Below are positions 2,984 through 20,460 of a stretch of DNA of 20,460 nucleotides, in pieces. A model generated the notes under the pieces. That model saw only the letters and a list, made by a program, of their open reading frames with translations. It was not told the origin of the DNA and ran no database searches. The translations under genes were made by a program, and so were the position numbers. Within the stretch, counting starts at the first letter, position 1. Each line of letters starts with the position of its first letter. This DNA is from a virus, in the IMG/VR virus record IMGVR_UViG_3300047560_000403, positions 1-20,460 of that record, one strand, 5' to 3'.

Positions 2984-5170
2984 ATGGCAAATGTGCTATC
3001 AGCAACAACTAACGCAGTAGCAGTTGGAGCAACGCTGGCAGGCGGTGTTGCCAGTGCCGCAAGCGGAATACTAGGCGGTATTGCTGGAATGCAAGTACCA
3101 TCGCCTAATATATTGTCAAAGTATGCAAGTTACGATTATATTATTAGTCTAAGTGCTATGACAATTCAGGATCTTAACTATCCTGATACATCTTATAAAG
3201 CAGGTAAAGTTTTACCTTTGATTTGCAAGTCAGGTTCTGCTCAACCAGAGAACAGAGTTAGAACTGCCTACGGCAAATTTGATTTTTACATCGACCAATT
3301 GACATTTGAATCAATTATCGGCATGGCCAATGCCAAAGCAACCAACGTATCAACTATTCAATTTGATGTATTTGAACCTTACAGCATTGGAACTTTTATT
3401 TTAGCATTACAAACAGCCGCTTATCAAAGTAAATTTGAAAACTGGCGTGATGCTCCTTTCTTATTAACCATAGAATTCCGAGGCAATACAGAAACTGGAT
3501 CGATTGTCAATGTTCCGTTTACTGCAAGACACATTCCTATTAGATTTACAACCATTGGTATGAAAGCAACTGAGAAAGGTTGCAAGTACAATGTCAGTGC
3601 GTATGCTACACAAAGCCAAGCATTGACAACACAGTATTCTAATTTAAAAACAGATACAGTTATCAAAGGTAAAACTGTACAAGAAATTTTACAAACTGGT
3701 GAACAAAGTCTTCAAGCAGTTGTTAACACATACTTAGAAGGTTTTGTCAAAGACAAAACTGTCGCAGTTGCAGACAAAGTTGTTATATTGTTTCCAACAG
3801 AAGAAGAGTTAGCCAGTGCCGCAGGCGCAGGCGCAGGTGGCGGTGCAGGCGACAAACAAAACTCTGCAACTTACAATCCAACACAAGTTACTGGAGACAG
3901 TGCCGCAATCTTTAAAAAGATAGGTATTAATCAAAGTAATTTAATACAAACATCTACTGTTAACGTTTTAGGCAAAGCAAGTTTAGGTTACGGCGATGCA
4001 AGACCAGGTGACCAAGAAGCTGGCATTGAAGAAATCAAATATGATTCTGCCACTGACACTTGGATTAGAGGCAAGATGGTTGTAAATCCTAAAGTAGGAT
4101 CGATGAAGTTTAGCCAAGACATGGACATTCCGGGCGTAATACATCAAGTGCTATTACAAAGTGCATATCCTGAAGAAGCATTAGGCAAATTAAAAGACGG
4201 TATGCGTACTTGGTGGCGTATTGACACACAAGTATTCTATATTGATACAACAGAAAATTTAAAATACACAGGAACTTATCCTAGAATTATTGTTTATCGT
4301 GTAGTTCCGTTTGATGTACATGCAGGCAAGATATCTGCAACTAACGTACAAACTCCTGGCTATGATAATATTAAACGTCAATGCGTTAAACGTTATGACT
4401 ACATTTATACTGGCAATAACAGTGAAGTAATTAATTTTAATATTGACTTTAGTGTAGGATTTGCCAACGTAATGGCATCAGACAGACTAAAACGTTCTCA
4501 GGGCGTTACTGAGTCAGAAAAGAATGCCAAGAAAGATTTAGCAGAAGACAAAAAAGATATTAAAGGATATGCCGCAGGAGAAAAAACTGCTAGCAATCAA
4601 GCAGGTGTGTCAGGCAGTCAGGTAAAATACGATGGAACAAAACAACCATATGACGGTGAAGGTGGTGCAAAAGCAGGTGAAACTGAAGCGCAACGTGCGG
4701 CTCGTATTTTTCACAAAGCGATTACTAACCCAAACGACATGGTTGTTTTAGATTTAGAAATATGGGGAGATCCTTACTGGGTTGTAAACAGTGGTATGGG
4801 CAACTATACTTCTAAACCAGTGCCTGGTATCAAGGATCTTAATAAAGACGGATCAGTAAACTGGCAAAGTAGCGAAGTAGACATTTGGGTTTATTTTAGA
4901 AGTCCTATTGATATTAATCAAGTAACCGGTATGTACGATTTTAAATCTGCAAACCATCAACAAGATTTTACATTTGATAGTAAAGCCGCACCAAGTATCG
5001 GATTTAGTGGATTGTACTGTGTTAACAGAGTTACAAGTACTTTTAGACAAGGACAATTTAGACAAACACTTAAAGGTTTCCGTAGACCATTACAAGATGC
5101 CAAAACAAAAGCATCAAGCGACCAGGTTCTTAATTCCAAGACACCTGCTGAAAAATCAAGCTCGAGTTAA
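2984..5170 (+). CDS. Probable baseplate hub protein (gp27 position), 728 residues
   Basis: Not recognised with certainty. Its place just before the gp5-like spike gene, and its C-terminal motif STFRQGQFRQTLKGFRR (about residues 685-701), resemble the end of hub (gp27/gpD-type) proteins, suggesting it forms the central hub trimer that holds gp5. Visible parts: residues 1-37 are a small-residue hydrophobic stretch (VGATLAGGVASAASGILGG). About 40-270 is a beta-rich domain with YDYIISLSAMTIQDLNYPDT and PFLLTIEFRG. About 275-291 is an Ala/Gly low-complexity linker. About 300-500 is a second folded region. About 500-570 is a charged Lys/Glu linker. About 580-701 (VLDLEIWGDPYW, VDIWVYFRSPIDIN) closes the protein. 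T4 gp27 has only 391 residues, so an extra domain is present. AGGA lies 8 bases before the ATG. Confidence 0.6.
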   Translation: MANVLSATTNAVAVGATLAGGVASAASGILGGIAGMQVPSPNILSKYASYDYIISLSAMTIQDLNYPDTSYKAGKVLPLICKSGSAQPENRVRTAYGKFDFYIDQLTFESIIGMANAKATNVSTIQFDVFEPYSIGTFILALQTAAYQSKFENWRDAPFLLTIEFRGNTETGSIVNVPFTARHIPIRFTTIGMKATEKGCKYNVSAYATQSQALTTQYSNLKTDTVIKGKTVQEILQTGEQSLQAVVNTYLEGFVKDKTVAVADKVVILFPTEEELASAAGAGAGGGAGDKQNSATYNPTQVTGDSAAIFKKIGINQSNLIQTSTVNVLGKASLGYGDARPGDQEAGIEEIKYDSATDTWIRGKMVVNPKVGSMKFSQDMDIPGVIHQVLLQSAYPEEALGKLKDGMRTWWRIDTQVFYIDTTENLKYTGTYPRIIVYRVVPFDVHAGKISATNVQTPGYDNIKRQCVKRYDYIYTGNNSEVINFNIDFSVGFANVMASDRLKRSQGVTESEKNAKKDLAEDKKDIKGYAAGEKTASNQAGVSGSQVKYDGTKQPYDGEGGAKAGETEAQRAARIFHKAITNPNDMVVLDLEIWGDPYWVVNSGMGNYTSKPVPGIKDLNKDGSVNWQSSEVDIWVYFRSPIDINQVTGMYDFKSANHQQDFTFDSKAAPSIGFSGLYCVNRVTSTFRQGQFRQTLKGFRRPLQDAKTKASSDQVLNSKTPAEKSSSS

Positions 5171-5173
5171 AAC

Positions 5174-6673
5174 ATGTCATCACCAAACGATAATATTGAT
5201 AATATACGAACTGGCACCGAAGTAAAGGTTAGACCAGGCGTATATAAAGCAAAAGTAGTTGGCTATCTTGACCCTACTCACATGGGCGCCTTGCAGGTTA
5301 AAGTAGAACGATATTCTGGTAACGATGAAATCCCTGGACAAGTGATTACAGTTGGCTACATGAGTCCCTTCTTTGGATCAACAAGCAAAGACCACGTAGG
5401 TAAAGATCCAAACAACTACGAACAAACACAAAAATCATACGGCTTCTGGATGGTTCCTCCTGATGTAGGAACTACTGTACTAGTATTGTTTGCTAATAAT
5501 GATATTAAGTACGGATACTGGATTGGAGTTGTTCCAGATGAATACATGAACTTTAGTGTTCCTGGAATTGCCGCTACAAAATATGTAGTTACTGATACTA
5601 AAGAATCAGAAAGCAAGTATGTTAGAGTCCCTGTTGCAGAATACAACAAAGAAGTATCAAATCAAGAAAATGATCCAACAAAGATTACTAAACCAGAACA
5701 TCCATTTGCTAAAATTTTACAAGAACAAGGGTTGTTACAAGATGACATTCGAGGAATAACAACTAGTAGTGCAAGACGAGAAACACCAAGCATGGTGTTT
5801 GGTATTAGTACTCCGGGGCCTGTAGATAAGAAAGGTAAAAAAGATAAAGTTGGCCCAGTCGGCAAACAGTTTACCGTTCCAGTTAGCCGCTTGGGTGGCA
5901 GTACATTTGTAATGGACGACGGCGATGATAAATTTCTTCGCAAAAAACCTGCCAGCGAAGGCCCGCCTGAATATGCATCTGTTGAACAAAAAGAAACAGA
6001 CGGCGATCCTAAAATTCCACACAACGAATTAATTCGTTTGCGTACAAGAACGGGTCATCAAATTCTTTTACATAACAGTGAAGATTTAATTTATATTGGC
6101 AATGCTAGAGGCACAACTTGGATAGAGATGACTAGCAACGGCAAGATTGATATCTATGCTGAAGACAGTATTAGTGTTCATACAAAAACAGATTTAAATT
6201 TCCGTGCTGACAGAGATGTTAACATTGAAGCTGGCCGCAACATGAACTTAAAAGGCTTGGCAAAATTCCATGCAGAAGGTAACCAAGTTGAAACAGTAGC
6301 AACCAACGATACTAAAATTACCAGTGGTGGTGCGTCACATATTAACAGTAAAGCATCACACAGAGAAACTGCTGGCAAAATATACATGAACAGTAATCCA
6401 GCTGCCGCCAGTGCAACAGCATTAAAACTAAACCAAGTGCCTAACGAATTAGGCGAAACAGTAGAATCGATTATGATGCGTGTGCCATCGCATGAGCCAT
6501 GGCCACATCACGAAAACTTAGATCCACAAAGTTTCCTACCAACAAAAACAGATAGAGAAGCAGGCGGTAGCGGAGCTACAGCAACGATGTATAAAAAGTA
6601 TACTACACTAAACGATACTTTTGAAAAGTTCTTACCGCCACAACCTGAAGAAGGAGGTTCAAATAACGCATGA
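5174..6673 (+). CDS. 5: gp5-like central spike protein without lysozyme domain
   Basis: Trimeric spike that pierces the cell envelope. Residues about 18-130 form the OB-fold: RPGVYKAKVVGYLDPTHMGA, then MVPPDVGTTVLVLF and YWIGVVPDEYMNFSVPG. Residues about 130-280 are a linker with the conserved-looking ARRETPSMVFGISTPGP (about 200-216) and GGSTFVMDDGDDKF. Residues about 283-405 give the VgrG/gp5-type beta-helix: LRTRTGHQILLHNSEDLIYI, WIEMTSNGKIDIYAEDSI, then DVNIEAGRNMNLKG. T4 gp5 places a T4-type lysozyme between OB-fold and helix; here that space is a linker with no Glu/Asp/Thr catalytic arrangement I can see. The beta-helix is about 120 residues, shorter than in T4. The last codons include AAGGAGGT, the ribosome site of gene 25, and the stop overlaps the ATG of 25. 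Confidence 0.86.
   Translation: MSSPNDNIDNIRTGTEVKVRPGVYKAKVVGYLDPTHMGALQVKVERYSGNDEIPGQVITVGYMSPFFGSTSKDHVGKDPNNYEQTQKSYGFWMVPPDVGTTVLVLFANNDIKYGYWIGVVPDEYMNFSVPGIAATKYVVTDTKESESKYVRVPVAEYNKEVSNQENDPTKITKPEHPFAKILQEQGLLQDDIRGITTSSARRETPSMVFGISTPGPVDKKGKKDKVGPVGKQFTVPVSRLGGSTFVMDDGDDKFLRKKPASEGPPEYASVEQKETDGDPKIPHNELIRLRTRTGHQILLHNSEDLIYIGNARGTTWIEMTSNGKIDIYAEDSISVHTKTDLNFRADRDVNIEAGRNMNLKGLAKFHAEGNQVETVATNDTKITSGGASHINSKASHRETAGKIYMNSNPAAASATALKLNQVPNELGETVESIMMRVPSHEPWPHHENLDPQSFLPTKTDREAGGSGATATMYKKYTTLNDTFEKFLPPQPEEGGSNNA
6651..6658 (+). promoter_or_regulatory. Perfect Shine-Dalgarno for gene 25, inside gene 5
   Basis: AAGGAGGT is a full match to the 16S rRNA anti-Shine-Dalgarno and is the strongest ribosome site in the window. 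It lies 11 bases before the ATG at 6670, within the last codons of gene 5 (Glu-Glu-Gly-Gly-Ser). Combined with the ATGA stop/start overlap, it suggests gene 25 is translated strongly and coupled to gene 5. Confidence 0.75.
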
Positions 6674-7113
6674 GCTCAAACGCACAACTATACGATAAAA
6701 TCGTACTAAAACCAAATATTAAATCTGGAACTGTATCTCCTAAAACCTATAAGGGTTTTAGTACTGTCAGTGCCGAAACTGAAAACTTTGCTTTATATGA
6801 CTTCCAACTTATTCAGCAAGACTTGCTCAACCATTTCCACGTTCGCCAGGGCGAGCGTCTAATGAATCCTACATTTGGTACAATTATATGGGATTTGTTA
6901 TTTGAGCCGTTAACTGACGAGCTTAAAAACTTGATTACAGACAATGTTAATCAAATCATCAACTACGATCCACGCATTAGTGCTAGCCAAGTTATTGTTA
7001 CACAATACGAGTCAGGAATACAAATAGAGTGTACTCTAACATACTTGCCATACAACATCAGCCAGTCAATGCAACTGCAATTTGACCAGAATAATGGGTT
7101 ATTGATAGGATAA
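6670..7113 (+). CDS. 25: gp25-like baseplate wedge subunit / sheath initiator
   Basis: GPW/gp25-family protein (147 residues; T4 gp25 is 132). In contractile tails and type VI secretion (TssE) it links the wedge to the first sheath ring. Family features: ALYDFQLIQQDLLNHFHVRQ near residue 42, then GERLMNPTFGTIIWDLLFEP (61-80), the helix LKNLITDNVNQIINY, and the turn NYDPRI (98-103) where the family has the EPR core. Here the first core residue is Asp100 rather than Glu, a conservative change. The start overlaps the stop of gene 5 as ATGA and is fixed by AAGGAGGT 11 bases upstream. A 48-base gap with a late-like promoter separates it from gene 6. Confidence 0.92.
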   Translation: MSSNAQLYDKIVLKPNIKSGTVSPKTYKGFSTVSAETENFALYDFQLIQQDLLNHFHVRQGERLMNPTFGTIIWDLLFEPLTDELKNLITDNVNQIINYDPRISASQVIVTQYESGIQIECTLTYLPYNISQSMQLQFDQNNGLLIG

Positions 7114-7134
7114 ACTACTCACATAATTCTGTTC

Positions 7135-7142
7135 GATAAATA
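7135..7142 (+). promoter_or_regulatory. Candidate T4-like late promoter before gene 6
   Basis: GATAAATA matches 7 of 8 bases of TATAAATA and lies in the only non-coding gap (7114-7161) of the baseplate operon. The implied start is near 7149. TAGGAT (7151-7156), the ribosome site of gene 6, would follow within a very short leader, and the ATG is at 7162. This resembles the arrangement before the gene at 1675. No terminator hairpin is visible in the gap, so read-through from upstream is also likely. Confidence 0.5.
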
Positions 7143-7161
7143 TAGTATATTAGGATGAATC

Positions 7162-10100
7162 ATGAGTGTAACCACAAGACAAAACAGATTATTAGTATCT
7201 GAAGACTGGAAGAAGATATACCAAAGTTTCCGCAACGCAGACTTTCAAAGCTACGACTTTGAAAACTTGCGTCGCACAATGATTGATTACATCCGTACAA
7301 ATTATCCCGAAGATTACAACGATTATATTGAGTCTAGCGAATACCTTGCCCTAATTGATTTGATAGCTTTCTTGGGCCAAAGCATAGCTTTCCGCGTTGA
7401 CTTAAATGCCCGTGATAACTTCCTAGAATTAGCAGATCGCCGTGAAAGCGTATTACGTCTAGCACGTATGCTTTCATACAACGCCAAGCGTACAGTTAGT
7501 GCCAGCGGCTTACTAAAGTTTACAACAGTTAGCACATCAGAAAACGTCATTGACAGTAATGGCCGTAATTTAGCAGGACAAACAATCAACTGGAATGACC
7601 CAGCTAATGCTAACTGGTATGACCAGTTTATCAAAGTGTTAAATGCCGCCATGGCAAAAACACAACAGTTTGGTAACCCTGTAGACAAAGCAGACATCTA
7701 CGGCATTCCAACAGAACAATACAGATTTAAAAATACGACTGCTGGTGTTCCTGTATTTGCGTTTAGTAAAACAGTAGCAGGACGTCCAATGGATTTTGAA
7801 GTTGTTAGTACATCATTCACTGGCCAAACATACATTTACGAAGAAACACCTAAAGTAGGAAATACAATTTCTTACATTTATAGAGATGATGGCCGCGGAG
7901 CAAGCTCTGCAGGATCTGGCTTCTTCATGCGTTTTGTTCAAGGTTCATTACAATCTGGTTCATTTACAATTACACAACCAGGTAGCAACGAGTCTATTGA
8001 CATTGACGCCGACAACATCAATAATGATGACGTATGGTTATATAAACTTGACCAGTCAGGTAATGAAAGCGAAAAGTGGGAAGCAGTTTCTAACTTGGAA
8101 GCAAACAACATTATCTATAACAGCTTAAACAAGAACATTAGAAATATCTACAGCGTAATTACACGTACTAACGATGCAGTTAGTTTACAATTTAGTGACG
8201 GCACATTTGGTAATTTGCCGTTAGGTACATTCCGTAGTTACTATAGAATTAGTAACGGTTTAGCTTACAGCATTAATACACAAGATATTAGAAATGTAAC
8301 TATCAGTTTCCCTTACACATCTGGTGCAGGCCAAGAAGAAACATTAACAGTTACTATGGCATTGTCAAGTAGTGTTTCAAATGCCGCGGCATCTGAGTCA
8401 AGCAACAGCATCAAAGCTAATGCACCACAAACATACTATACACAAAACCGTATGATTACAGGCGAGGACTATAATATTAGTCCATTGTCTGCAAGCACAC
8501 AGATTGCTAAAATTAAAGCAATTAATAGAACAAGCAGTGGTATTAGTCGCTATTTTGATTTGTCAGATCCAACTGGCAAATACAGCTCAACAACATTGTT
8601 TGCCGATGACGGTGTCTTGTACACAGAAGAGTACGAAAGCAATTTCCGTTTTTCTTATCAAAACAAAACAGACATCGAAGGCATTATTTACAACAACGTT
8701 TTTGATATTTTAAAAGACATTAATTTAAGAAACTTCTACTATAACAAGTTTATCAGTTTCGTTACAGCCAGCTTGGATATTGTTTGGAAAGACATCACAA
8801 CTGACAGCAACAGTTCAACAGGTAACGTTTCATCTGTTGAAGGAAATGTAATTTATAAAGTAGGTTCTTATACAGCAACTGACTTAAAATATTTTAAACC
8901 AGGATGTTTGGTTAAATTTGTTGCTCCTGCAAATTACTATTTTGACGGCTTAAATGGCAACAAACTTGTTTTAGGTAATCCAACAACTGCTGGCGCAGTT
9001 ACATCTATCTGGGCAGAAGTTGTTAGTGTTGTTGATGACGGCACAGCATCAAATACTGGTGTTTTAGACACAGGTTTAGGCCCAATTACATTAAACCGTG
9101 TAGTTCCAACAAATGCAATTATTAGTCAAATTATTCCTAAGTGGAGAACTGTTATTGACACTAGTGTTATCACTACAATGATTGATTTGATTTATGCTAA
9201 CAAGCCATTTGGCCTACGCTACGATGCAATTAATCAAGTATGGACTATTGTGTTTGAATTAAACTTAGATGTACAAAGCAACTTTAGTTTAGGCAAACAA
9301 GGCGACAAAACTAACCAGAAGCAAGATGCTAGCTGGTTGTTATTGTTTACAACAGACAACGAATTTTACACAGTAACTAGCCGTGTTCAACGCTATATCT
9401 TTGAAAGTGATACTCAAGTTAGATTCTATTTTGACACATCAAACAAAATTTACGACAGTAAAGCAAATGCAGTAGTTAAAGATTCTATTAACATTTTAAG
9501 TATTAATACATTACCGCTATTAACATCTGCTTATACAACAGACAAACCATGGGACATCGTTAGCGAGTTTACTGGCTTAGATGGTTATGTAGATACTAAA
9601 AAATTAATTGTAACATTTGCAGACTCAGACGATAACGGTGTTGTTGACAATCCTGAATTGTTCTTAGACATTGTTAACCCGCCATTAGTAGGCGAAACAG
9701 ATAACAGTTTACTACAACAAAAATACAAAATTTTTGGCAAGTATGTTATTAGTCAAGGACAAGAAGATTACAAGTATGTTTCTAATGCAGACAACAAAGT
9801 GCTAATCAAGTACACTAAGAGCTCTGTTGGCAGTTTAAGCCAGTATGCAGATGGACAATATTTCTATTTTGTTGACACAGACACAGTTGTTAAGTTGAGT
9901 AAAAATACTCCTAACAATCAGTTTGTACCAACTTTAGATTATAAAGTATTCCTAGGACGAAGCGACCTTAAGTTCCAATACATTCATAATGCAGATTACG
10001 AATCACGTATTGATCCAGGCGTAAGTAACATCATTGACGTTTATATCCTAACCAAGAGTTATGATACAAAATTCAGACAATGGTTGGCTGGTGTTACATC

Positions 10101-10653
10101 AACTAAACCATTGCCTCCAAGTTCTAGCGAATTGTATGATTTAGTTGCAACTAACTTAAATCTAATTAAATCAATTAGCGATGAAATTGTATACCATCCT
10201 GTAAATTATAAGATATTATTTGGTTCATCAGCCGCACCAGATTTACAGGCAAGTTTCAAAGTTGTTAAAAATGCAAACCGTGTAGTTAGCGATAACGACA
10301 TTAAGACTCGTGTAATCACAGCAATAGAAGAATTCTTTGCTTTAGAAAACTGGGACTTTGGTGATACATTCTACTTTACAGAATTGTCTACTTACGTAGT
10401 AAATCAATTAAGTCCAGATATTTCAAGTTTTGTCATTGTGCCAAGACTAGGCGGTCTTGGATTTGGTAGTTTGTTTGAAATTAAATCAGCAAGCGACCAA
10501 CTGTTTGCCAATGCCGCAACAGTTGACGATGTTGAAATTATTTCAGGAATTACATCAACAACAATTAAATCTGTAGCAGGCACAACTACTGATACTACAG
10601 TATCATCATCACAACAAATAACAAGTTCAAACTACGGAGCAAACAATGGCTGA
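7162..10653 (+). CDS. 6: gp6-like baseplate wedge protein, enlarged (1163 residues)
   Basis: Wedge protein that forms the inner ring joining wedges around the hub. The N-terminal region (about 1-120), with FENLRRTMIDYIRTNYPEDY, LALIDLIAFLGQSIAFRVDL and RRESVLRLARMLSYNAKR, matches the gp6/baseplate-J start. Residues about 340-460 (LQFSDGTFGNLPLGTFR, then APQTYYTQNRMITGEDYNI) are the baseplate-J core. About 1030-1140 (VVSDNDIKTRVITAIEEFF, FYFTELSTYVVNQLSPDI) fits the C-terminal helical/ferredoxin-like end that dimerises gp6 in T4. T4 gp6 has 660 residues; the extra roughly 500 lie between the J core and the C-terminus and read as beta-rich segments without recognisable catalytic motifs. The start has AGGA upstream. 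The stop overlaps the next gene by 8 bases. Confidence 0.88.
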   Translation: MSVTTRQNRLLVSEDWKKIYQSFRNADFQSYDFENLRRTMIDYIRTNYPEDYNDYIESSEYLALIDLIAFLGQSIAFRVDLNARDNFLELADRRESVLRLARMLSYNAKRTVSASGLLKFTTVSTSENVIDSNGRNLAGQTINWNDPANANWYDQFIKVLNAAMAKTQQFGNPVDKADIYGIPTEQYRFKNTTAGVPVFAFSKTVAGRPMDFEVVSTSFTGQTYIYEETPKVGNTISYIYRDDGRGASSAGSGFFMRFVQGSLQSGSFTITQPGSNESIDIDADNINNDDVWLYKLDQSGNESEKWEAVSNLEANNIIYNSLNKNIRNIYSVITRTNDAVSLQFSDGTFGNLPLGTFRSYYRISNGLAYSINTQDIRNVTISFPYTSGAGQEETLTVTMALSSSVSNAAASESSNSIKANAPQTYYTQNRMITGEDYNISPLSASTQIAKIKAINRTSSGISRYFDLSDPTGKYSSTTLFADDGVLYTEEYESNFRFSYQNKTDIEGIIYNNVFDILKDINLRNFYYNKFISFVTASLDIVWKDITTDSNSSTGNVSSVEGNVIYKVGSYTATDLKYFKPGCLVKFVAPANYYFDGLNGNKLVLGNPTTAGAVTSIWAEVVSVVDDGTASNTGVLDTGLGPITLNRVVPTNAIISQIIPKWRTVIDTSVITTMIDLIYANKPFGLRYDAINQVWTIVFELNLDVQSNFSLGKQGDKTNQKQDASWLLLFTTDNEFYTVTSRVQRYIFESDTQVRFYFDTSNKIYDSKANAVVKDSINILSINTLPLLTSAYTTDKPWDIVSEFTGLDGYVDTKKLIVTFADSDDNGVVDNPELFLDIVNPPLVGETDNSLLQQKYKIFGKYVISQGQEDYKYVSNADNKVLIKYTKSSVGSLSQYADGQYFYFVDTDTVVKLSKNTPNNQFVPTLDYKVFLGRSDLKFQYIHNADYESRIDPGVSNIIDVYILTKSYDTKFRQWLAGVTSTKPLPPSSSELYDLVATNLNLIKSISDEIVYHPVNYKILFGSSAAPDLQASFKVVKNANRVVSDNDIKTRVITAIEEFFALENWDFGDTFYFTELSTYVVNQLSPDISSFVIVPRLGGLGFGSLFEIKSASDQLFANAATVDDVEIISGITSTTIKSVAGTTTDTTVSSSQQITSSNYGANNG

Positions 10654-13600
10654 TAGTACCAACCCAAGTGGAAACAAATCAATTAGCGCAAACTTATTAC
10701 CAAGATATTATAGAACAGACGCTAATAAAAAGTTTTTACAAGCCACGGTTGACCAGTTAATACAACCAGGTACCGTTAAGAAAATTAACGGATACATTGG
10801 CCGCCAAAATGCAAAATCTGCAACAGGCGATGACATTTATATTACTGCTCCAACTGCTGATAGACAAAACTATCAATTAGAACCAGGTTTAGTTATTAAA
10901 GACAACTTGGGTAATAATACATTCTTTAAAGATTATCAAGACTACATTAATCAACTAGGAGTGTTTGGTGCAAATACTAAAAACCATGCTCGTTTAAACG
11001 AGCAGGAAATGTATAGCTGGGATCCACATATTAATTGGGATAAGTTTTCTAACTTTCAAAACTACTATTGGCTACCATATGGTCCTGATGTTATTAAAAT
11101 TACAGGACAAGCGCAAGGAATCGAAAGCACATATACTGTTAATATTATGCCAGAGGCAGATAATAATACCTATGTATTCTTTCCTAACACAACTGCACAA
11201 CTAGAAAACCCTACTATTAAATTATATAGAGGGCAAACTTATCGTTTTGAAATTACCAGCGTTGGTAATCCATTCAGTATTAAAACAAAAAGAACAGCAG
11301 GTAAGTTTGACAGATATTTAATACCAGGTATAACTGGCCAAGCTATTGAAGAAGGTGTAATTCAATTTACAGTTCCTTATAATTCTCCAGACATCTTATA
11401 TTATGTCAGCGAGAAAGATGCAAACTTGGGCGGCGTGTTTGAAATTTTGTCTATCGATGAAAACACAACACTAGATGTTAATGCAGAAATTATTGGTAAA
11501 AAATACTATACATTACCTGACGGTACAAAATTAAGTAACGGTATGAAGGTATCGTTTGTTGGTCAAGTATTGCCAGCAGAATACCGTACAGGGCAGTATT
11601 ATGTTGAAGGTGTTGGCGATGCAATTCAACTAATTAACGAGTCTATTTTAGAACTAGTTAGCTCATATACAGCGTCTGAATCTATTGCTTTTGACAGCAC
11701 TCCGTTTGATTCTATGCCATGGAGTGATGCTACAACATTTGCTGGCGTTAAGGATTATGTTGTTATTAACCGCGGCAGTTTTGACCACAACCCATGGTCA
11801 CGTTACAACCGTTGGTTCCACAAAGACGTCATCGAAGCCAGTGCGGCATACAACGGCAAGATTGCTAACATTGACGAAACAGCAAGAGCTACTAGAGCAA
11901 TTATTGAATTTGAACCAAACATTCGTTTGTATAATTTTGGTACAGAAGCTATCGCAGACGTTGACCTAATTGACACATATACAACAGACGTTATGTCTAA
12001 TGTTGAAGGCCAAATTGGTTACAACATTGACGGTGTTGCACTAGCACAAGGCCAACGCATCTTGTTTACTAACGATACAGATGTACGTGTTAAAAATAAA
12101 ATTTACAAAGTTGACTTTTTAATTTTAGACGGTGAACGTAGAATTCATTTAGTAGATCAAGGAGATCCTGTTGCTAATCAGGTAGCGTTAATCAAACAAG
12201 GTTTAAAAAATCAAGGTTTGATGTACTGGTACAATGGTACTAATTGGCTATCAGCACAACAAAAATTAACTGTAAACCAAGCACCTCTTTTTGATATTGT
12301 TGACGACAGTGGCTACAGCTACGGCGACAAAACAGTATACGATGGTTCAACATTTGCTGGAACACGTTTGTTTTCTTACAAAGTAGGAACAGGCACTAAC
12401 GATAGTGTTTTAGGATTCCCATTAACTTATAAGAACATTAACAACGTTGGCGATATTGTTTTTAATTTTAATATTGCTACAGACAGCTTCCAATATAAAA
12501 GTGGTTCTAACATTGTTTCAGGTAGCACAAATGTGGGATACCTTGTTAAAACATTGCCAGACAGAACAGAAGCATTTGTTAACGGCTGGCAAAAAACATT
12601 AACAAAGAATTTACAAAGTTCTGTTAGAATTTACAGAGGGACAACTAAAGTTAATAATTTCGATATTGACTTATTTGAAGATATTAATCAGTTAGATGAT
12701 TTAGTTGTTAAGGTGTACCTAAACGGCGACAGACTTTACAATAATCAGTGGAGCATAGTTAACGGCGGATACTATAAGAAACTAGTATTAAATGCAGACA
12801 TCACAGCGTCAGATATTTTAACAATTCGATGCTATGCGGCTCAGCCGATTAATGCTAACGGTTACTATGAGATTCCTTACAATTTACAAAACAATCCATT
12901 GAACAACGAGATTGGAGATTTTACATTAGGTGAAGTTTCTAACCATGTTAACTCAATGATAGGCAATTTAGAAAACTTTGACGGAATTTTTCCAGGCTCA
13001 AGCAACTTGCGTGACCTTGGAAATGTAACTCCTTATGGTACACGTTTTGTACAACACAGTGGTCCGATAAGTTTATCTTTATATCATATTACATCTGAAA
13101 ACAACAACGTTATCAGAGCATTAGAACAGTCACGTGATGACTACAACAAGTTCAAACGTAATTTTATTACTGTTGCTAAAACGTTAGGTGTGCTTGGTGA
13201 TCCTGTAAAACAAGTAAATTTAATTTTACAAGAAATTAACAAAGACAAGCCTAAAACATTCCCATATTACTTTAGTGATATGATTCCTTACAACGGAAGT
13301 ATTCGCACAGACTTAACTGTTATTGACTACAGAATTAAAACATATCCGTTGACAAATACTTTTACACTAGACACATTGTCTAGCAAAGCAGTATTGGTTT
13401 ACCTAAATGGCGAGCAATTACTTTACAAGAAAGATTATACTTTTAACAGTCAGGGATTCATCGTTGTAAGTGCAACTATTGCCAATGGCGATGCAATTAC
13501 CATTTATGAATTTGAAAATACAAACGGTTGCTTTGTTCCACAAACACCTACAAAGTTAGGCATTTGGCCAAAGTATGAACCAAAAATTTATTTAGATACA

Positions 13601-16600
13601 AGTCTTGTAACACCACGTACAATGATTCAAGGCCACGATGGCAGTCAAACACTTGCCTACGGCGACTACAGAGATGAGTTGATTCTTGAATTAGAAAAAC
13701 GTATCTATAACAATATTAAGATTGAATATGATCCTGATATTTTTGACATTCACGACATTGTACCAGCGTACAATAGAGGCAATGCCTACACATTGAAAGA
13801 GTTTAACGAAGTATTAGCTTCAAACTTTTACAAGTGGGTAAACGTTATCGACAGAGATTTTACTAAACCACTTAGCTATAATAGTAGCGATAGTTTAACT
13901 TTCAATTATAAAGATTTATCAACACCAGACGGACAATCACCGCTTCCAGGTTACTGGAAAGGTATCTATCGTTGGATGCTAGATACTGACAGACCAAACT
14001 TAACACCTTGGGAAATGTTAGGATTTAGCGAAGAACCATCATGGTGGCAAGAGCAATACGGACCAGCTCCATACACAAGAGATAACTTGATTATGTGGGA
14101 CGATTTAGCTGATGGTATTGTACGTCAGCCAGGAGTTCCACCAGTACAATTAACAAAATATGTAAGACCATATTTGAAGAATCGTATTCCTGTTGACGAA
14201 TACGGCAACGTTCAAAGTCCATTATTATCCGGATTAGCCAACGGTATTATTACAAATACTACAGCAGGTGACTTTGTATTCGGCGACGTAAGTCCTGTAG
14301 AAAGCGCATGGCGCCGTAGCAGTTACTATCCATTCAGCATGTTGTTAACATTTATGTTGCTACAACCAAGTAAGGCATTCGGTGTATTGCTTGACCGTTC
14401 ACGTATTGTTAGAAACAAAGCCGGACAATTGATTTACAAAGACACCGGCCTACGTATTAAGCCAGCAGACATTGCGTTACCGAGCATTTATTCTAGTACA
14501 ACTGATGTTAGAACAAGCGGTATTATCAACTATATTGTTGATTATATCATCAGCGATAATTTAAAATCATACAATCAATATGCGTATGATTTAACAAATA
14601 TTGAACCAAGACTAAGTCATCGTATCAGCGGATTTACCAGCAAAGAAAAATTCAAGTTATTGCTTGATAGCAAAACACCATTGACTTCTGGTAGCGTATT
14701 TGTGCCACAAGAAGACTATGAAATTGTTCTTAACAGCTCAAGCCCAATTAAGAAAATTAATTATAGTGCCGTTATTGTAACTAAGTTTACTGACGGATTT
14801 GGTATTAAAGGTTACAGCACTACACAACCGTTTTTCAAGTATTACGATTATACTAAAACAGGAATTCAAATCAACGTAGGCGGCATCAGTGAAAGTTATG
14901 TAACATGGGCTCCACGCAGTCAATACTCGGCAGGTAAAGTTGTTGCTTTTGGCAACAGATATTACAGAGCCAAGTCATTACATACGACCACAGAAGTATT
15001 CAATCCTGTTTATTATGAACTATTGCCTAAGCTACCAATCATTGGCGGCGTTGATGCATACTTGCGTCAAGGCTGGGACAGAACTACTGAGCTAACAGTT
15101 CCATATGGAACTAAATTCCGCACAGTACAAGAAGTTGTTGACTTCTTAGTCGGTTACGGCGAATATTTAAAAGACCAGGGATTTGTGTTTGACGAGTTTA
15201 ATACAACACTTGGCGCAATTACTAACTGGGAAACTAGTGCTAAAGAATTCTTATTCTGGACTACACAAAACTGGAGCGCCGGAGAAGACAAGTGGGAAGA
15301 TTGGAGAGCTAATCAACCATACAAAGCTGGCACTATTGTACGCTATAACGGCGACTACTTCCAAGCAATTAGACTTGTTGAACCTACTGATATTTTCAAC
15401 GAAGAAGATTATGCACGACTAGATGGATTAAGCTCAGTGGGTAGTGCAGTTATTAGTTTAAGCCCATCAGCAAATAAATTAACATTCTCGACACCGTTGT
15501 GTATTGTTGACGATATTCGCAATCCATTTAACGGCTACGAAATTTTTAAAGTTGACGGAACACAATTACAACCAAACTTCTTAAACAACTACAGAGAAGA
15601 CAACACAGTAAGTTACACACCAATTGATGATGGAATTTACGGTGCTACATTCTATCTTGTACAAAAAGAACAAGTTGTTATCTTAAAGAATACAACATTG
15701 TTTAATGACACTATCTATAGTCCAGAAAGTGGCTACAGACAAGAACGAATCAAAGTTGCAGGTTATGTAAGTAGCGACTGGAAGGGTGATTTTAACATTC
15801 CAGGATTTATCTTTGACCAAGCAGTTGTTCAAGAGTGGGATGCTTGGAAAGACTATGCGCTAGGCGACATTGTCAAATATAAACAGTTCTACTATAGTGC
15901 TAAAACTTTTATAGCAGGAACACAAGCATTCGATGCCAACGATTGGATTAAGTTAGATAGCAAACCAGAAGCAAAATTATTGCCTAACTGGACATATAAG
16001 GCAACACAATTTACAGACTTCTATAGCTTGGACAGCGACAACTTTGATGCTAGCCAGCAGGAAGTTGCACAGCATTTAATTGGCTATCAAAAGCGTCAAT
16101 ACCTAAGCAACATTATTCAAGATGATGTGTCTGAATTTAAGTTCTATCAAGGTATGATTGTTGAGAAAGGCACACAAAACGTATTGAACAAGTTGTTTGA
16201 TGTGCTAAGTGCTGACGGACAAGAAAGTATTAAGTTCTACGAAGAGTGGGCATTACGTGTTGGACAGTATGGAGCAAACCAAGCGTTTGAAAATATTGAA
16301 TTTGTCATCGACGAAGCAACATTAAAGAGTAATCCACAGGGCTTTGAATTAGTTAATGTAATTGAGCCAGGACTGTCAGACTTTATTACTAGACAAACAC
16401 CTAACGATGTTTATTTAAAACCTATCGGTTATAATAGTGCCCCATTCCCAACAGTTAGCACTTACACACCTTATTTGAGAACACCAGGCTATGTCAGAAG
16501 TAACGAAGTTAAATTAACTTTAAAAACTATTGACGATATCCTTACACAAGATGTATCATCTTTCTTAGATGGTGAATATGTATGGGTTGGGTTTGAAGGC

Positions 16601-19600
16601 CGTGAATGGAATGTCTACAGATATACAAATTTACAACAACAGATTAACAACATTGAATATACAGGTACAACAGTTGAGATTGAACTAACTGCCGATGTTG
16701 AAAATGTAACACCAGGTTCTGTTATTGCTATTGACCAAGCATCGAATTATACTGGATTTTACAAAGTCAAAGATGTTGTTCTTAAGAAGATTATAGCAAC
16801 TGCTACCTTTAAATCTCAACCTAAACCATTTGCAGACCAAGCAAGAGCTACGATTGCTATTCTAAATAGCCAGCGTTTTGCATCAATCGATGACTTGTCA
16901 TTAACACAAATCAATGACGGCGAATTAGCATGGACTGATGATTCCGGTGACGGCAAGTGGGCAACTTGGAAATTTACTCCAGCATTTGCACAAACAGAAT
17001 TAACAAATAGTGCGCCAGCAAACGGCCTAGCATATGGTAGACGTGTACTGTTAAGCGACAGCGGAACGATTGCTATTTCGTCTACTGGTGTTGGCGACTT
17101 AATTGTATTTGATAGAACAGGCTTGGCAGCACCTTGGCTGCAACGCCAAACAATTACAGCACCGTTCATCTCAAGAACTGAGGGCTTTGGTTACACACCA
17201 ACACCAGATGCTTACACAGGCGATGTAATTGCTATTTCTGCAGACAGTCAGTGGTTAGCATCTGGAACACCACGTGCTTCTAACGTATCTAGTAAGTTCA
17301 AAGGACAATGGAACGTTAACACATCATATGATATTGGTACTGTTGTGTTGCGTAACGGACAACCATATAAAGCAGTTGTAGCACACTTTGGCCACGATCC
17401 ATTGGTAACAGCAACAACCTATACAGATTTAGCAGGAGCAACTGTTATTGGTGCAGGCTATGGCGCAACATTTACTATTGTTTCTAACAAAGGTAACTAC
17501 ACAGCGACAATTACAAATAGCGGATCTAACTATAAAGTGGGTGACACAATTAGAATCACCGGCAATTTAGTTGGTGGCGCCGCACCTACTAACAACGTAG
17601 TGTTGACAGTAGTTTCAATCGTCAACGGCGATTTAAGTGGTCCTATTGCTAACGTTTCTGTAACAGGTAACGCTAAAGTATTCTGGAACAGCATTCCTTA
17701 TATTCCTGTAGATGCAGATGGTAGCAACAGCAATGGTTTTGAAAACCAAGGCGTAATTTCTATCTACAAGAAAGATGCTAATAACATCTTTAGTCTAGTG
17801 GCAACGATGTTAAGCCCAAATCCAACTGCTAATGAAAAGTTCGGCTCAAGTTTAGTATTTGGTGATAATGAATTATTTGTTGGTGCAGAAGGCTATAACA
17901 ACAACACTGGTATTATCTACCGTGTAAGCTATCAGTCTATAGTAATTACAGCAACTTCTTACAACCCATTAGGTAGTTCAGGAACAACTGTTGCATTGTC
18001 TAGTACTGCTGGTATTCTTCCAGGATTGTATTTAAAAGGCAACGGGTTTACAAGCAATCAATATGTTGCTACAGTTAACTCAACAAACAACACCGTTGTA
18101 ATTACAGCCGCTCCAGACACAGCACCAAACGGTATTATCAACTTTGTCGACACTAGTTGGAGATACGATGTTATCAATGCGTTGACAGAAACATTACCAA
18201 GCGATAGCGGATTTGGTAAAGTGTTAGACATGACTTCAGACAATTCTGTATTAATCGCAGCCGCACCAGGCCGTGTTACAGATGGAAAAGTATTTGTTTA
18301 CAAAGTTAATCCGTTGACTGGCGATTATGTTAAGACACAAACAATCGTAGGACAAGATGAACAATTTGGTTCAAGTTTGTCTATATCTAATGACGGCGAA
18401 TATCTTGCAATATCATCTGTATTAGCAGATGGCACTAAGTTGGATCAAGGTGCTGTATACGTTTACAAATTAGTAAACGGACAGTATGTATGCGACCCAG
18501 CTAACAACATCGGACAACTATTAACAACTAACACTCCAGAAGTAGCTGGATTCTTTGGTAGCAAAGTTCTGTTTATGAATGGCTACGAAACGTTGGTTAT
18601 TTACAGCCAAGGTGCTGATAACTATACAACAACAACGTTTAATACAAACGGTGTTACAACATTTGACAACAACTTAACTAAATTTAAGGACCGCGCAGAA
18701 GACAGTGGCCGTGTTGATGTATACGACAGATACAACACCAAGTGGGTGTTTGGTGAAAGTCTTGCCAACAGCGCAGATGGCAGTTCTGGATACAGTTCTG
18801 GATTAGCAGTTGGCGCAAATCAAATTCTAGTTGGAACTCCATACGTTGACGACCAAGGATATAGATCTGGTAAGATTTATTCATATCGTAAAACTGTTGG
18901 TACATACAGCTGGACAATTTTACACAAAGAAAACAATCGTGTTGATTTAACTAAAATTAAGAAAGCATTCTTATATAATAAAGTTACAAACAAATTAATT
19001 TCTTACTTGGATGTGATTGATTCAAATCAAGGAAAGATTCCGGGTGTAGCGGATCAAGAAATCAAATACAAAACTTTCTACGATCCTGCAACATACAGTT
19101 CTGGAAATACTACAGTTAACGTTGACGACGGCATGGCATGGACCAAGTCACAAGTTGGTGCATTATGGTGGGATTTAAGAACTGCTAAATTCTTTGACAG
19201 TCATGATGAAAGTTTAATTTATAGAAACAGCAATTGGAATTCAATATTCCCAGGTGCAAGCATTGACATTTACGAATGGGTTGAAACCAAATTAACTCCG
19301 GATCAATGGAATGCACTTGCAGATACTGAAGAAGGTATTGCTGTTGGTGTTAGCGGTACAAGTTTATACGACAATACAGTTTATTCTATTGTTCGTAAAT
19401 ATGATAACGTTAGCAAGACATTTAAGAACACATACTACTACTGGGTTAAAAATAAGAAGACAGTTCCGAACATTGTGGATAGAAAATTATCTGCACAGGA
19501 TGTTGTTGACTTAATTGAAAATCCACGCGGCTACGGATATAGATATCTAGCATTAACTGGTAACAACAGTTTTAGTCTAGTAAACGTTAAGAGTTTATTA

Positions 19601-20460
19601 GAAGATAAAAATGTGGTATTAAGCATCGAATACTGGACAAGCCCATACACTGATAAAAATATTCACAGTGAGTGGAAGATTATCAACAACAATTCTTCTA
19701 CACAGTTGCCAACTGCAATTGAAAACAAATGGTTTGACAGTCTGTGTGGTAAAGATGAAGCAGGCCGTGTAGTTCCTGATCCAGCATTACCAGCAAAATT
19801 AAAATACGGTATTGAAGTACGTCCACGCCAAAGCATGTTTGTAAATCGCTTCGAAGCGTTGAAGCAGTTCATTGAACAAGTAAACTTGGCTTTACGTAGT
19901 CAACTAATTGTTGAAAGCAGAGACATCACTAAGTTAGAATCGTTTGAAGCAGAGCCAAGTACAATCACTGGCTTGTATGATTCAACACTAGATACAGATG
20001 CTGAATTACGTTTTGCTAATATTGGAACATACGGTAAGCCAACAGTAACACCAGTTATTGTTGATGGCAGAATTACAGGCATTGACATTGTTGAAAGAGG
20101 TAGTGGTTACTTGGTTGCTCCTTACATTGAAATTATTGGGTCTGGTACAGGCGCAGTAGTTAGATCAATCTTAGACTCAAGAGGCCGCGTTGTAGGTGCT
20201 ACAGTTATTTCTTCAGGCTATGGCTATGACGACAATACTATTGCAATGATTAGAAATTACAGCGTATTGATCCACAGCGACAGTATTGCTGAAGGCGCAT
20301 GGAGCATTTATACTTACGAACCTAGCACACTTGTTTGGTCCAGAGTACAAAGTCAAAGCTACGATGTAAGAAAGTATTGGAGCTATGCTGACTGGTATGC
20401 TACTGGTTATAATGAATTTACAGCAGTGGATCATTCTGTAACTTCTATGGTGTCATTAAC
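10646..20460 (+). CDS. Giant modular baseplate/structural protein in the gp7 position (partial)
   Basis: Continuous open frame of 3271 codons with no stop, still open at the right edge. GGAG lies 6 bases before the ATG, which sits inside the end of gene 6. I read it as one virion protein of the type found after gp6 in aquatic T4-like phages, where T4 has gp7 (1032 residues). No T4 gp7 similarity is evident to me. Order of parts: N-terminal head with NLLPRYYRTDANKKFLQATV and KINGYIGRQN (1-160); cupredoxin-like module (173-268); two YLNG modules (686-730, 913-957); a conserved-looking core with FGDVSPVESAWRRSSYYPFS (near 1215); CBM5/12-like motifs near 1421, 1553, 1734 and 2222; an FG-GAP-type propeller (2128-2762); a mixed C-terminal region with a GSGY-type module (about 3120-3200). 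No protease, glycosidase or transmembrane motif was seen. A role as wedge scaffold carrying host-surface-binding modules is inference. Confidence 0.88.
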   Translation, partial: MADSTNPSGNKSISANLLPRYYRTDANKKFLQATVDQLIQPGTVKKINGYIGRQNAKSATGDDIYITAPTADRQNYQLEPGLVIKDNLGNNTFFKDYQDYINQLGVFGANTKNHARLNEQEMYSWDPHINWDKFSNFQNYYWLPYGPDVIKITGQAQGIESTYTVNIMPEADNNTYVFFPNTTAQLENPTIKLYRGQTYRFEITSVGNPFSIKTKRTAGKFDRYLIPGITGQAIEEGVIQFTVPYNSPDILYYVSEKDANLGGVFEILSIDENTTLDVNAEIIGKKYYTLPDGTKLSNGMKVSFVGQVLPAEYRTGQYYVEGVGDAIQLINESILELVSSYTASESIAFDSTPFDSMPWSDATTFAGVKDYVVINRGSFDHNPWSRYNRWFHKDVIEASAAYNGKIANIDETARATRAIIEFEPNIRLYNFGTEAIADVDLIDTYTTDVMSNVEGQIGYNIDGVALAQGQRILFTNDTDVRVKNKIYKVDFLILDGERRIHLVDQGDPVANQVALIKQGLKNQGLMYWYNGTNWLSAQQKLTVNQAPLFDIVDDSGYSYGDKTVYDGSTFAGTRLFSYKVGTGTNDSVLGFPLTYKNINNVGDIVFNFNIATDSFQYKSGSNIVSGSTNVGYLVKTLPDRTEAFVNGWQKTLTKNLQSSVRIYRGTTKVNNFDIDLFEDINQLDDLVVKVYLNGDRLYNNQWSIVNGGYYKKLVLNADITASDILTIRCYAAQPINANGYYEIPYNLQNNPLNNEIGDFTLGEVSNHVNSMIGNLENFDGIFPGSSNLRDLGNVTPYGTRFVQHSGPISLSLYHITSENNNVIRALEQSRDDYNKFKRNFITVAKTLGVLGDPVKQVNLILQEINKDKPKTFPYYFSDMIPYNGSIRTDLTVIDYRIKTYPLTNTFTLDTLSSKAVLVYLNGEQLLYKKDYTFNSQGFIVVSATIANGDAITIYEFENTNGCFVPQTPTKLGIWPKYEPKIYLDTSLVTPRTMIQGHDGSQTLAYGDYRDELILELEKRIYNNIKIEYDPDIFDIHDIVPAYNRGNAYTLKEFNEVLASNFYKWVNVIDRDFTKPLSYNSSDSLTFNYKDLSTPDGQSPLPGYWKGIYRWMLDTDRPNLTPWEMLGFSEEPSWWQEQYGPAPYTRDNLIMWDDLADGIVRQPGVPPVQLTKYVRPYLKNRIPVDEYGNVQSPLLSGLANGIITNTTAGDFVFGDVSPVESAWRRSSYYPFSMLLTFMLLQPSKAFGVLLDRSRIVRNKAGQLIYKDTGLRIKPADIALPSIYSSTTDVRTSGIINYIVDYIISDNLKSYNQYAYDLTNIEPRLSHRISGFTSKEKFKLLLDSKTPLTSGSVFVPQEDYEIVLNSSSPIKKINYSAVIVTKFTDGFGIKGYSTTQPFFKYYDYTKTGIQINVGGISESYVTWAPRSQYSAGKVVAFGNRYYRAKSLHTTTEVFNPVYYELLPKLPIIGGVDAYLRQGWDRTTELTVPYGTKFRTVQEVVDFLVGYGEYLKDQGFVFDEFNTTLGAITNWETSAKEFLFWTTQNWSAGEDKWEDWRANQPYKAGTIVRYNGDYFQAIRLVEPTDIFNEEDYARLDGLSSVGSAVISLSPSANKLTFSTPLCIVDDIRNPFNGYEIFKVDGTQLQPNFLNNYREDNTVSYTPIDDGIYGATFYLVQKEQVVILKNTTLFNDTIYSPESGYRQERIKVAGYVSSDWKGDFNIPGFIFDQAVVQEWDAWKDYALGDIVKYKQFYYSAKTFIAGTQAFDANDWIKLDSKPEAKLLPNWTYKATQFTDFYSLDSDNFDASQQEVAQHLIGYQKRQYLSNIIQDDVSEFKFYQGMIVEKGTQNVLNKLFDVLSADGQESIKFYEEWALRVGQYGANQAFENIEFVIDEATLKSNPQGFELVNVIEPGLSDFITRQTPNDVYLKPIGYNSAPFPTVSTYTPYLRTPGYVRSNEVKLTLKTIDDILTQDVSSFLDGEYVWVGFEGREWNVYRYTNLQQQINNIEYTGTTVEIELTADVENVTPGSVIAIDQASNYTGFYKVKDVVLKKIIATATFKSQPKPFADQARATIAILNSQRFASIDDLSLTQINDGELAWTDDSGDGKWATWKFTPAFAQTELTNSAPANGLAYGRRVLLSDSGTIAISSTGVGDLIVFDRTGLAAPWLQRQTITAPFISRTEGFGYTPTPDAYTGDVIAISADSQWLASGTPRASNVSSKFKGQWNVNTSYDIGTVVLRNGQPYKAVVAHFGHDPLVTATTYTDLAGATVIGAGYGATFTIVSNKGNYTATITNSGSNYKVGDTIRITGNLVGGAAPTNNVVLTVVSIVNGDLSGPIANVSVTGNAKVFWNSIPYIPVDADGSNSNGFENQGVISIYKKDANNIFSLVATMLSPNPTANEKFGSSLVFGDNELFVGAEGYNNNTGIIYRVSYQSIVITATSYNPLGSSGTTVALSSTAGILPGLYLKGNGFTSNQYVATVNSTNNTVVITAAPDTAPNGIINFVDTSWRYDVINALTETLPSDSGFGKVLDMTSDNSVLIAAAPGRVTDGKVFVYKVNPLTGDYVKTQTIVGQDEQFGSSLSISNDGEYLAISSVLADGTKLDQGAVYVYKLVNGQYVCDPANNIGQLLTTNTPEVAGFFGSKVLFMNGYETLVIYSQGADNYTTTTFNTNGVTTFDNNLTKFKDRAEDSGRVDVYDRYNTKWVFGESLANSADGSSGYSSGLAVGANQILVGTPYVDDQGYRSGKIYSYRKTVGTYSWTILHKENNRVDLTKIKKAFLYNKVTNKLISYLDVIDSNQGKIPGVADQEIKYKTFYDPATYSSGNTTVNVDDGMAWTKSQVGALWWDLRTAKFFDSHDESLIYRNSNWNSIFPGASIDIYEWVETKLTPDQWNALADTEEGIAVGVSGTSLYDNTVYSIVRKYDNVSKTFKNTYYYWVKNKKTVPNIVDRKLSAQDVVDLIENPRGYGYRYLALTGNNSFSLVNVKSLLEDKNVVLSIEYWTSPYTDKNIHSEWKIINNNSSTQLPTAIENKWFDSLCGKDEAGRVVPDPALPAKLKYGIEVRPRQSMFVNRFEALKQFIEQVNLALRSQLIVESRDITKLESFEAEPSTITGLYDSTLDTDAELRFANIGTYGKPTVTPVIVDGRITGIDIVERGSGYLVAPYIEIIGSGTGAVVRSILDSRGRVVGATVISSGYGYDDNTIAMIRNYSVLIHSDSIAEGAWSIYTYEPSTLVWSRVQSQSYDVRKYWSYADWYATGYNEFTAVDHSVTSMVSL
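11162..11449 (+). other. Cupredoxin-like module of the giant protein, metal ligands missing
   Basis: Residues 173-268 follow the pattern of cupredoxin-like domains seen in phage structural proteins: PTIKLYRGQTYRFEI, then NPFSIKT, PGITGQAIEEGVIQFTVPY, LYYVSEKDANLGGVFEIL. In copper-binding members the first His (HPF) and the Cys/His before MGG are ligands. Here they are Asn (NPF), Val/Ser and Asn-Leu. The fold is probably kept as a structural sandwich without copper. Confidence 0.5.
12701..12835 (+). repeat. YLNG module, copy 1 (residues 686-730)
   Basis: VVKVYLNGDRLYNN, then a beta segment and LVLNADITASDILTIRCY. This is the 'V-x-LNG ... D-x-L-x-I' pattern common in phage tail and fibre proteins, and it pairs with the second copy about 680 bases downstream. 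Function is unknown; it is probably a small beta module. Confidence 0.5.
13382..13516 (+). repeat. YLNG module, copy 2 (residues 913-957)
   Basis: KAVLVYLNGEQLLYKKDYTF, then IVVSATIANGDAITIYEF. It has the same plan and length as the copy at 12701-12835, but diverged sequence, which points to an old duplication or repeated recruitment of a common phage module. Confidence 0.5.
14903..15026 (+). repeat. CBM5/12-like motif 1 (residues 1420-1460)
   Basis: Plan W-x5-Y-x2-G-x-V...Y-x-A: TWAPRSQYSAGKVVAFGNRY followed by YRAKSLH and a closing NPVYYELL. Spaced Trp/Tyr residues of this kind form the sugar-stacking face in family 5/12 carbohydrate-binding modules. Assigned by pattern only. Confidence 0.5.
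15290..15424 (+). repeat. CBM5/12-like motif 2 (residues 1549-1593)
   Basis: DWRANQPYKAGTIVRYNGDY followed by FQAIRLV and closing NEEDYARL. It keeps the Trp, Tyr, Gly and Val spacing of motif 1. The upstream FLFWTTQNWSAGEDKWE adds further aromatic residues. Confidence 0.55.
15836..15955 (+). repeat. CBM5/12-like motif 3 (residues 1731-1770)
   Basis: WDAWKDYALGDIVKYKQFYY followed by SAKTFIAG and closing FDANDWIKL. This is the closest to the textbook CBM5/12 plan (W-x-Y-x2-GD-x-V-x-Y...Y-x-A...W). Confidence 0.6.
17294..17401 (+). repeat. CBM5/12-like motif 4, inserted in propeller blade 2
   Basis: FKGQWNVNTSYDIGTVVLRN followed by GQPYKAVVAHFGHDPL; the central Trp is residue 2222. Same spacing as the other three, but it lies within a loop of the predicted propeller. 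Confidence 0.55.
17423..17690 (+). other. GSNY-type beta module inserted in propeller blade 2
   Basis: AGYGATFTIVSNKGNYTATI followed by TNSGSNYKVGDTIRITGNLV and GDLSGPIANVSVTG. This Gly/Asn-rich plan ('GSNY-x-VGD-x-I-x-I-x-G') recurs in structural proteins of aquatic T4-like phages. It sits directly after CBM-like motif 4. Blade 2 resumes after it with GVISIYKKD near 17750. Function is unknown. Confidence 0.45.
17930..18165 (+). other. Beta module inserted in propeller blade 3
   Basis: SSGTTVALSSTAGILPGLYL followed by KGNGFTSNQYVATVNSTNNT and VVITAAPDTAPNGIINFVD. This is a compact beta module of a kind repeated in phage structural proteins ('STAGI-x-x-G-x-Y-x-x-G-x-G'). It separates the first strands of blade 3 (FGSSLVFG...IIYRV) from blade 4. 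Confidence 0.45.
20010..20250 (+). other. GSGY-type module near the right edge
   Basis: Residues about 3122-3200: GRITGIDIVERGSGYLVAPY followed by IEIIGSGTGAVVRSILD, then GRVVGATVISSGYGYDDN. Two half-repeats of the 'G-x-I-x-x-(I/V)-x-V-x-x-x-G-x-GY' plan can be seen. It is followed by an aromatic stretch, KYWSYADWYATGYNEF, at about 20367-20420. The module type is common in phage tail proteins; its role is unknown. Confidence 0.45.

Follow-up and report, generated by a model that had tools for sequence, protein, structure and literature searches.

The window, the whole 20,460-base stretch of viral DNA analysed here, encodes a giant virion protein that carries at one site what structure prediction identifies with high confidence as a seven-bladed integrin-alpha-like β-propeller (residues 2128–2762). 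Modules are inserted in two of its blades, one of them within another, and comparison of homologous sites supports the gain, loss and repositioning of such modules over evolution. We consider it probable, on the whole, that the propeller is an adhesive scaffold whose loops serve as sockets for modules, with a role in adsorption. Genes in the window include a late sigma factor and gp25-like and gp5-like baseplate proteins; the features that frame the propeller are as follows.

7162–10653, + strand: gp6-like baseplate wedge subunit (phrog_10646, E 1.4e-301), directly upstream of the giant ORF
10646–20458, + strand: giant virion protein ORF (phrog_10938), 3,271+ aa, open at the 3' end of the window
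14903–14989, 15299–15373 and 15833–15919: three CBM5/12-like motifs in the conserved core of the giant protein (residues 1420–1448, 1552–1576 and 1730–1758)
16013–16654, + strand: conserved N-side anchor (residues 1790–2003), common to cultured jumbo phages
17027–18931, + strand: predicted seven-bladed integrin-alpha-like β-propeller, from the AlphaFold2 model and integrin matches
18911–19900, + strand: conserved C-side anchor block, starting at residue 2756, from alignment

The giant ORF matched the phrog_10938 profile (E 2.7e-298), whose members include the jumbo phages 121Q, RaK2, PA5oct, Atu_ph07 and SCTP-2; relatives of the protein reach about 4,400–5,400 aa. Its homologue also follows a gp6-like gene in PA5oct, Atu_ph07 and 121Q, and the PA5oct homologue is annotated as detected in virions by ESI-MS/MS. 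Gene position alone suggests gp7. Profile–profile comparison of the N-terminal 2,018 residues with five T4 gp7 sequences (hhalign) gave a probability of <1% and hence no support for that identity; because no sequence link to T4 gp7 was found, ‘gp7-like’ is a positional label for the giant protein. A PDB search with the profile of the same 2,018 residues matched only CBM5/12 chitinase and deacetylase domains, and sequence and fold searches returned no solved homologue of the protein outside the propeller. A model of the core of a propeller-less relative (L064; pLDDT 73.8) was largely ordered in both flanks and not in the stretch between them. When solved structures were searched with this core around the site for a gp7 fold, nothing exceeded Z 6.4, and the middling matches up to that value included β domains of phage necks, tails and the phiKZ baseplate.

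Elsewhere in the giant ORF, at about 20025–20250 of the window (residues about 3127–3202), lies a GSGY-type module (RGSGYLVAPYIEIIGSGTGAVV) that resembles the GSNY module described below in style, without significant similarity to it. In another relative (L034) the ORF consists of two overlapping frames (3482–11953 and 11910–18503) with the break inside the propeller region, owing either to a sequencing error or to a real break.

AlphaFold2 modelling of residues 2100–2785 with 45 relatives gave a mean pLDDT of 89.8 and a pTM of 0.86, and the strands of the model fell into seven groups of four (28 blade strands). This bears out the seven-bladed propeller that the initial annotation had proposed from the sequence, and the predicted domain coincides almost to the residue with the boundaries given there (17027–18931). 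The best solved match, found with VIA-align, was the integrin alpha-L head (Z 33.1, rmsd 3.1, 352 residues), covering model residues 13–653. The profile searches that had been suggested as a check, with FG-GAP/integrin-alpha and CBM models, agreed: the family sequence profile found integrin alpha-4 without structural input (E 4e-14), Pfam FG-GAP_2 gave significant matches to the window (E 1.2e-5, past its cut-off) and to 40 of the 46 members of the family, and Pfam CBM_5_12 matched the whole protein at E 4.7e-10, a value that sums several motifs. Of the repeat signature described initially, the G-x-V/I-x-V/Y strand endings held in all seven blades (GDLIVFDR, GVISIYKK, GIIYRVSY, GKVFVYKV, GAVYVYKL, GRVDVYDR and GKIYSYRK); the FG starts were canonical only in blades 3, 4, 5 and 6 and degenerate in blades 1, 2 and 7. 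The integrin calcium motif DxDxDGxxD was found in the strand A–B loops of none of 136 site sequences, and a relaxed form of it in only nine, the window not among them. The propeller is integrin-like in fold but not an integrin.

Relatives were gathered in two independent ways, with the propeller as query and with nothing but the flank downstream of it. The propeller was present in 132 of 136 distinct site sequences (the window counted), and in the flank-only searches, among the matches listed (the nearest 80 each), it was carried by 86 of 86 sites. The four propeller-less sites were those of L064, 121Q, Vibrio phage 2.275 and Salicola phage SCTP-2; in PA5oct and Atu_ph07 the site of the propeller is taken up by different sequence. 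Since these cultured jumbo phages lack it at this position, the propeller itself behaves, at the level of sequence comparison, like something inserted into a conserved protein; within one uncultured group it is stable and, the comparison being unrooted, was either gained there or lost elsewhere. In the Atu_ph07 protein (L068, residues 1660–3173) the site is occupied by about 1,500 residues made up of GSGY-like repeats plus a CBM-like motif. A LamG/ConA-like domain suspected by eye at the SCTP-2 site was unconfirmed by Pfam and PDB sequence searches.

Within the window, model strands and alignment divide the propeller as follows.

17027–17161, + strand: blade 1 (residues 2128–2172)
17207–17290, + strand: blade 2, strands A–B (residues 2188–2215)
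17291–17398, + strand: CBM5/12-like module, N-terminal half (residues 2216–2251), from Pfam CBM_5_12 and alignment
17399–17677, + strand: GSNY β-module inside the CBM5/12-like module (residues 2252–2344), missing as a block in L009, L010, L012 and L029
17678–17707, + strand: last strand of the CBM5/12-like module, VFWNSIPYIP (residues 2345–2354), after the nested GSNY module
17708–17815, + strand: blade 2, strands C–D (residues 2355–2390)
17831–17953, + strand: blade 3, strands A–C (residues 2396–2436)
17954–18142, + strand: inserted β-module in the blade 3 C–D loop (residues 2437–2499), missing in L028, L042, L045 and L063
18143–18190, + strand: blade 3, strand D (residues 2500–2515)
18203–18355, + strand: blade 4, with B–C loop inserts of up to 1,064 aa in relatives
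18362–18535, + strand: blade 5, with large inserts in no relative
18551–18769, + strand: blade 6, with an extended B–C loop (41 aa in the window)
18785–18931, + strand: blade 7, from model strands

The inserts occupy the blade 2 B–C loop and the blade 3 C–D loop, and insert-less relatives align cleanly across the junctions, so that both inserts come and go cleanly, the point that the initial annotation had put up for checking. The β-module proposed to split blade 3 proved to be such an insert. Blade 2 is likewise split as proposed, except that the CBM5/12-like motif and the GSNY module are not arranged one after the other: the GSNY module lies within the CBM5/12-like one, whose last strand resumes beyond it and aligns with FWEKIPYIP of L009 and KWKKVPYIP of L012. 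Relatives have a short blade 2 B–C loop (L005, L007, L015 and L028), an uninterrupted CBM5/12-like module in it (L006, L009, L010, L012 and L029) or, like the window, one interrupted by GSNY (L001, L002 and L004). By alignment, then, the nesting order is giant protein, propeller, CBM5/12-like module, GSNY module.

The seven blades of the core were constant in all 132 distinct propeller sequences, while inserts stretched the site from 505 to 1,796 aa. Most strand-to-strand distances stayed constant; 2B–2C spanned about 15–430 aa and 3C–3D about 5–716 aa, and the 4B–4C, 1D–2A, 6B–6C, 1B–1C and 3A–3B loops varied in subsets. Apparent 7A–7B inserts may be misplaced 7B–7C inserts, as MAFFT and HMM alignments differ, and the alignment placement of very large inserts is approximate. 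On a FastTree phylogeny of the flanking anchors, with moderate support and with size thresholds of our choosing, the size class changed at least 25 times in the 2BC socket, at least 21 times in 3CD and at least 8 times in 4BC.

Module classes were not confined to one socket. CBM-type modules gave 78 matches in 2BC, 13 in 3CD and 11 in 4BC; GSNY modules gave 22 in 2BC, four in 3AB (a placement confirmed by eye in L161), two in 4BC and one upstream of blade 1; and the blade 3 module type was found in 2BC as well (four). The blade 4 B–C loop of L143, L116 and L135 holds 849–1,064 aa, exceeding the propeller itself, and in L143 this insert includes two GSNY modules. The idea that every insert lies on the integrin ligand face was set aside, since by canonical topology 3C–3D and 3A–3B are on the other face.

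The initial annotation had further proposed that the modules could be exchanged between phages. Recurrent gain, loss and change of socket agree with this, but there was no clear case of modules much more alike than the backbones of their phages: module identity exceeded backbone identity by at least 12 points in five pairs only, none dramatic. Recent horizontal swapping between lineages was not demonstrated. In a stronger form of the adhesive-scaffold reading, compatible with it, recombination would often swap modules between phages and provide a fast host-range cassette system. Identical module classes in different sockets would fit such swapping, as would close cores that differ in insert content, such as L120 and L127, which are 82% identical in the core and have 94 versus 240 inserted residues. 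However, cases in which modules clearly resemble each other more than their backbones do number only five, all weak, and most of the data are explained by vertical descent accompanied by gain and loss; we regard frequent swapping as rather doubtful.

The name CBM5/12 calls for care. The best CBM_5_12 stretch in the window (residues 2221–2247) covers profile positions 1–27 of 44, as expected of a module split by GSNY, and the excised 686-aa region alone scored 25.7 against a cut-off of 26.2. Some uninterrupted copies likewise match only part of the profile; some relatives match the full profile, for instance L018 (4–44 of 44). In a simple text scan for exposed binding-face aromatics like Trp687 of chitinase A1, WW, WF or WY occurred in 2 of 99 matches, and 26 of the 99 had some Trp directly following the motif; the window has His-Asp-Pro at the scanned position. 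As these aromatics appear to be mostly missing and the protein's conserved core contains related motifs, carbohydrate binding should not be read off the Pfam name. The core motifs at residues 1420, 1552 and 1730, of a kind that occurs in cultured jumbo phages too, are probably part of the scaffold. In Vibrio phage 2.275 the gene at the gp6-like position (L071, 2566–6429) is annotated as carbohydrate-binding module family 5/12, and CBM5/12-like modules may enter the neighbouring wedge protein as well.

What the propeller does is suggested by its pattern of divergence. Mean identity was 67.3% in the anchors, 47.5% in the propeller core and 52.8% in the modules (1,306 aligned insert pairs with anchors >60% identical), the module values being local alignments and thus biased upward. 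A core that diverges faster than its anchors is as expected of an exposed part and, together with the hypervariable loops and the integrin precedent, points to an exposed adhesive scaffold. The propeller, inserted at a single site in a conserved giant virion protein that is associated with the baseplate in a group of uncultured jumbo phages, would form that scaffold, with its blade loops as sockets for CBM5/12-like, GSNY-type and blade 3 β-modules that have been gained, lost, stacked and nested in one another during evolution. The assembly most likely projects from the tail or baseplate and would touch cell-surface glycans or other envelope components at adsorption, where a change of modules would retune binding. 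We infer that the propeller is exposed on the virion and adhesive, that its ligand is of this kind and that it affects host range. The display platform with recognition modules envisaged initially fits the predicted architecture and the site beside the gp6-like baseplate gene.

Alternatively, the propeller and its modules could be structural, clamping baseplate subunits or holding tail fibres, the modules being neutral or stabilising and free of ligand. The CBM5/12-like motifs in the conserved core and the apparent scarcity of the aromatic signature mean that the modules may indeed be purely structural; the CBM5/12 annotation of the Vibrio phage 2.275 protein at the gp6 position, where a structural role is plausible, and the lack of integrin-type calcium sites point the same way. 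Nevertheless, cultured relatives do without the propeller, and a few loops vary hugely while those next to them stay constant, which resembles diversifying surface elements rather than assembly contacts; a purely structural role is unlikely in our judgement. It is far less probable still that the propeller is enzymatic, perhaps a domain that degrades glycans, with the modules as substrate-targeting parts. Carbohydrate-binding modules are frequent companions of glycan-active enzymes, lyases and lactonases are found among bacterial propellers, and a weak match to Lactonase was seen in one relative, but the closest structural and sequence relatives of the propeller are integrin heads, not enzymes.

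Under the adhesive-scaffold reading, the propeller region may govern attachment in otherwise unannotated jumbo-phage proteins of about 4,000–5,400 aa. Adhesive proteins are known to be modular; here one protein has three successive levels of insertion, and relatives have kept the intermediates (no insert, CBM only and CBM interrupted by GSNY), so that the sequence in which the levels were assembled, and how far the loops tolerate insertion, can be tested directly. The natural inserts also reveal which propeller loops tolerate domains. More tentatively, and as a reading that we hold to be somewhat less likely than not, we suggest that this uncultured group adsorbs through an integrin-like propeller in its giant baseplate protein, with nested-module sockets, so that plug-in recognition would sit in the baseplate itself and not on separate tail fibres.

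The propeller shares with integrin alpha its seven blades and FG-GAP repeats, detected by both profile and fold, but differs in having no DxDxDG calcium motifs and no apparent beta subunit and in being embedded in a tail protein. In integrins, the insertion of adhesion domains into propeller loops is well established, the alpha-I domain of alpha-L, alpha-M and alpha-X being placed in this way; the integrin insert is a von Willebrand A domain, whereas the phage inserts are small CBM-like, GSNY and β-modules in the 2 B–C, 3 C–D and other loops. With other phrog_10938 jumbo-phage proteins, the window protein has in common the conserved flanks on both sides and, where checked, the position after a gp6-like wedge; by contrast, none of five cultured members has the propeller at the site, which is empty or is filled by a CBM5/12-like stretch, by GSGY-type repeats or by different sequence. 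CBM family 5/12 is matched in the window by Pfam, but the window module is split by GSNY and the binding-face aromatics, by the text scan, appear to be usually missing from modules of this kind. The same propeller class is predicted in viral FG-GAP proteins of BFVD (a Megaviridae FG-GAP protein, the Atu_ph07 ‘hemagglutinin’ and a virion protein of cyanophage S-TIM5). A search of open-access literature yielded no description of an FG-GAP propeller in a phage tail or baseplate protein, or of nested modules within one. Among contractile-tail adhesins, β-propeller lectins and domain insertions have been reported in the fibres of extracellular contractile injection systems (PMC12923769). Those fibres are separate tail-fibre proteins, whereas the phage propeller lies within a giant protein encoded beside the wedge gene.
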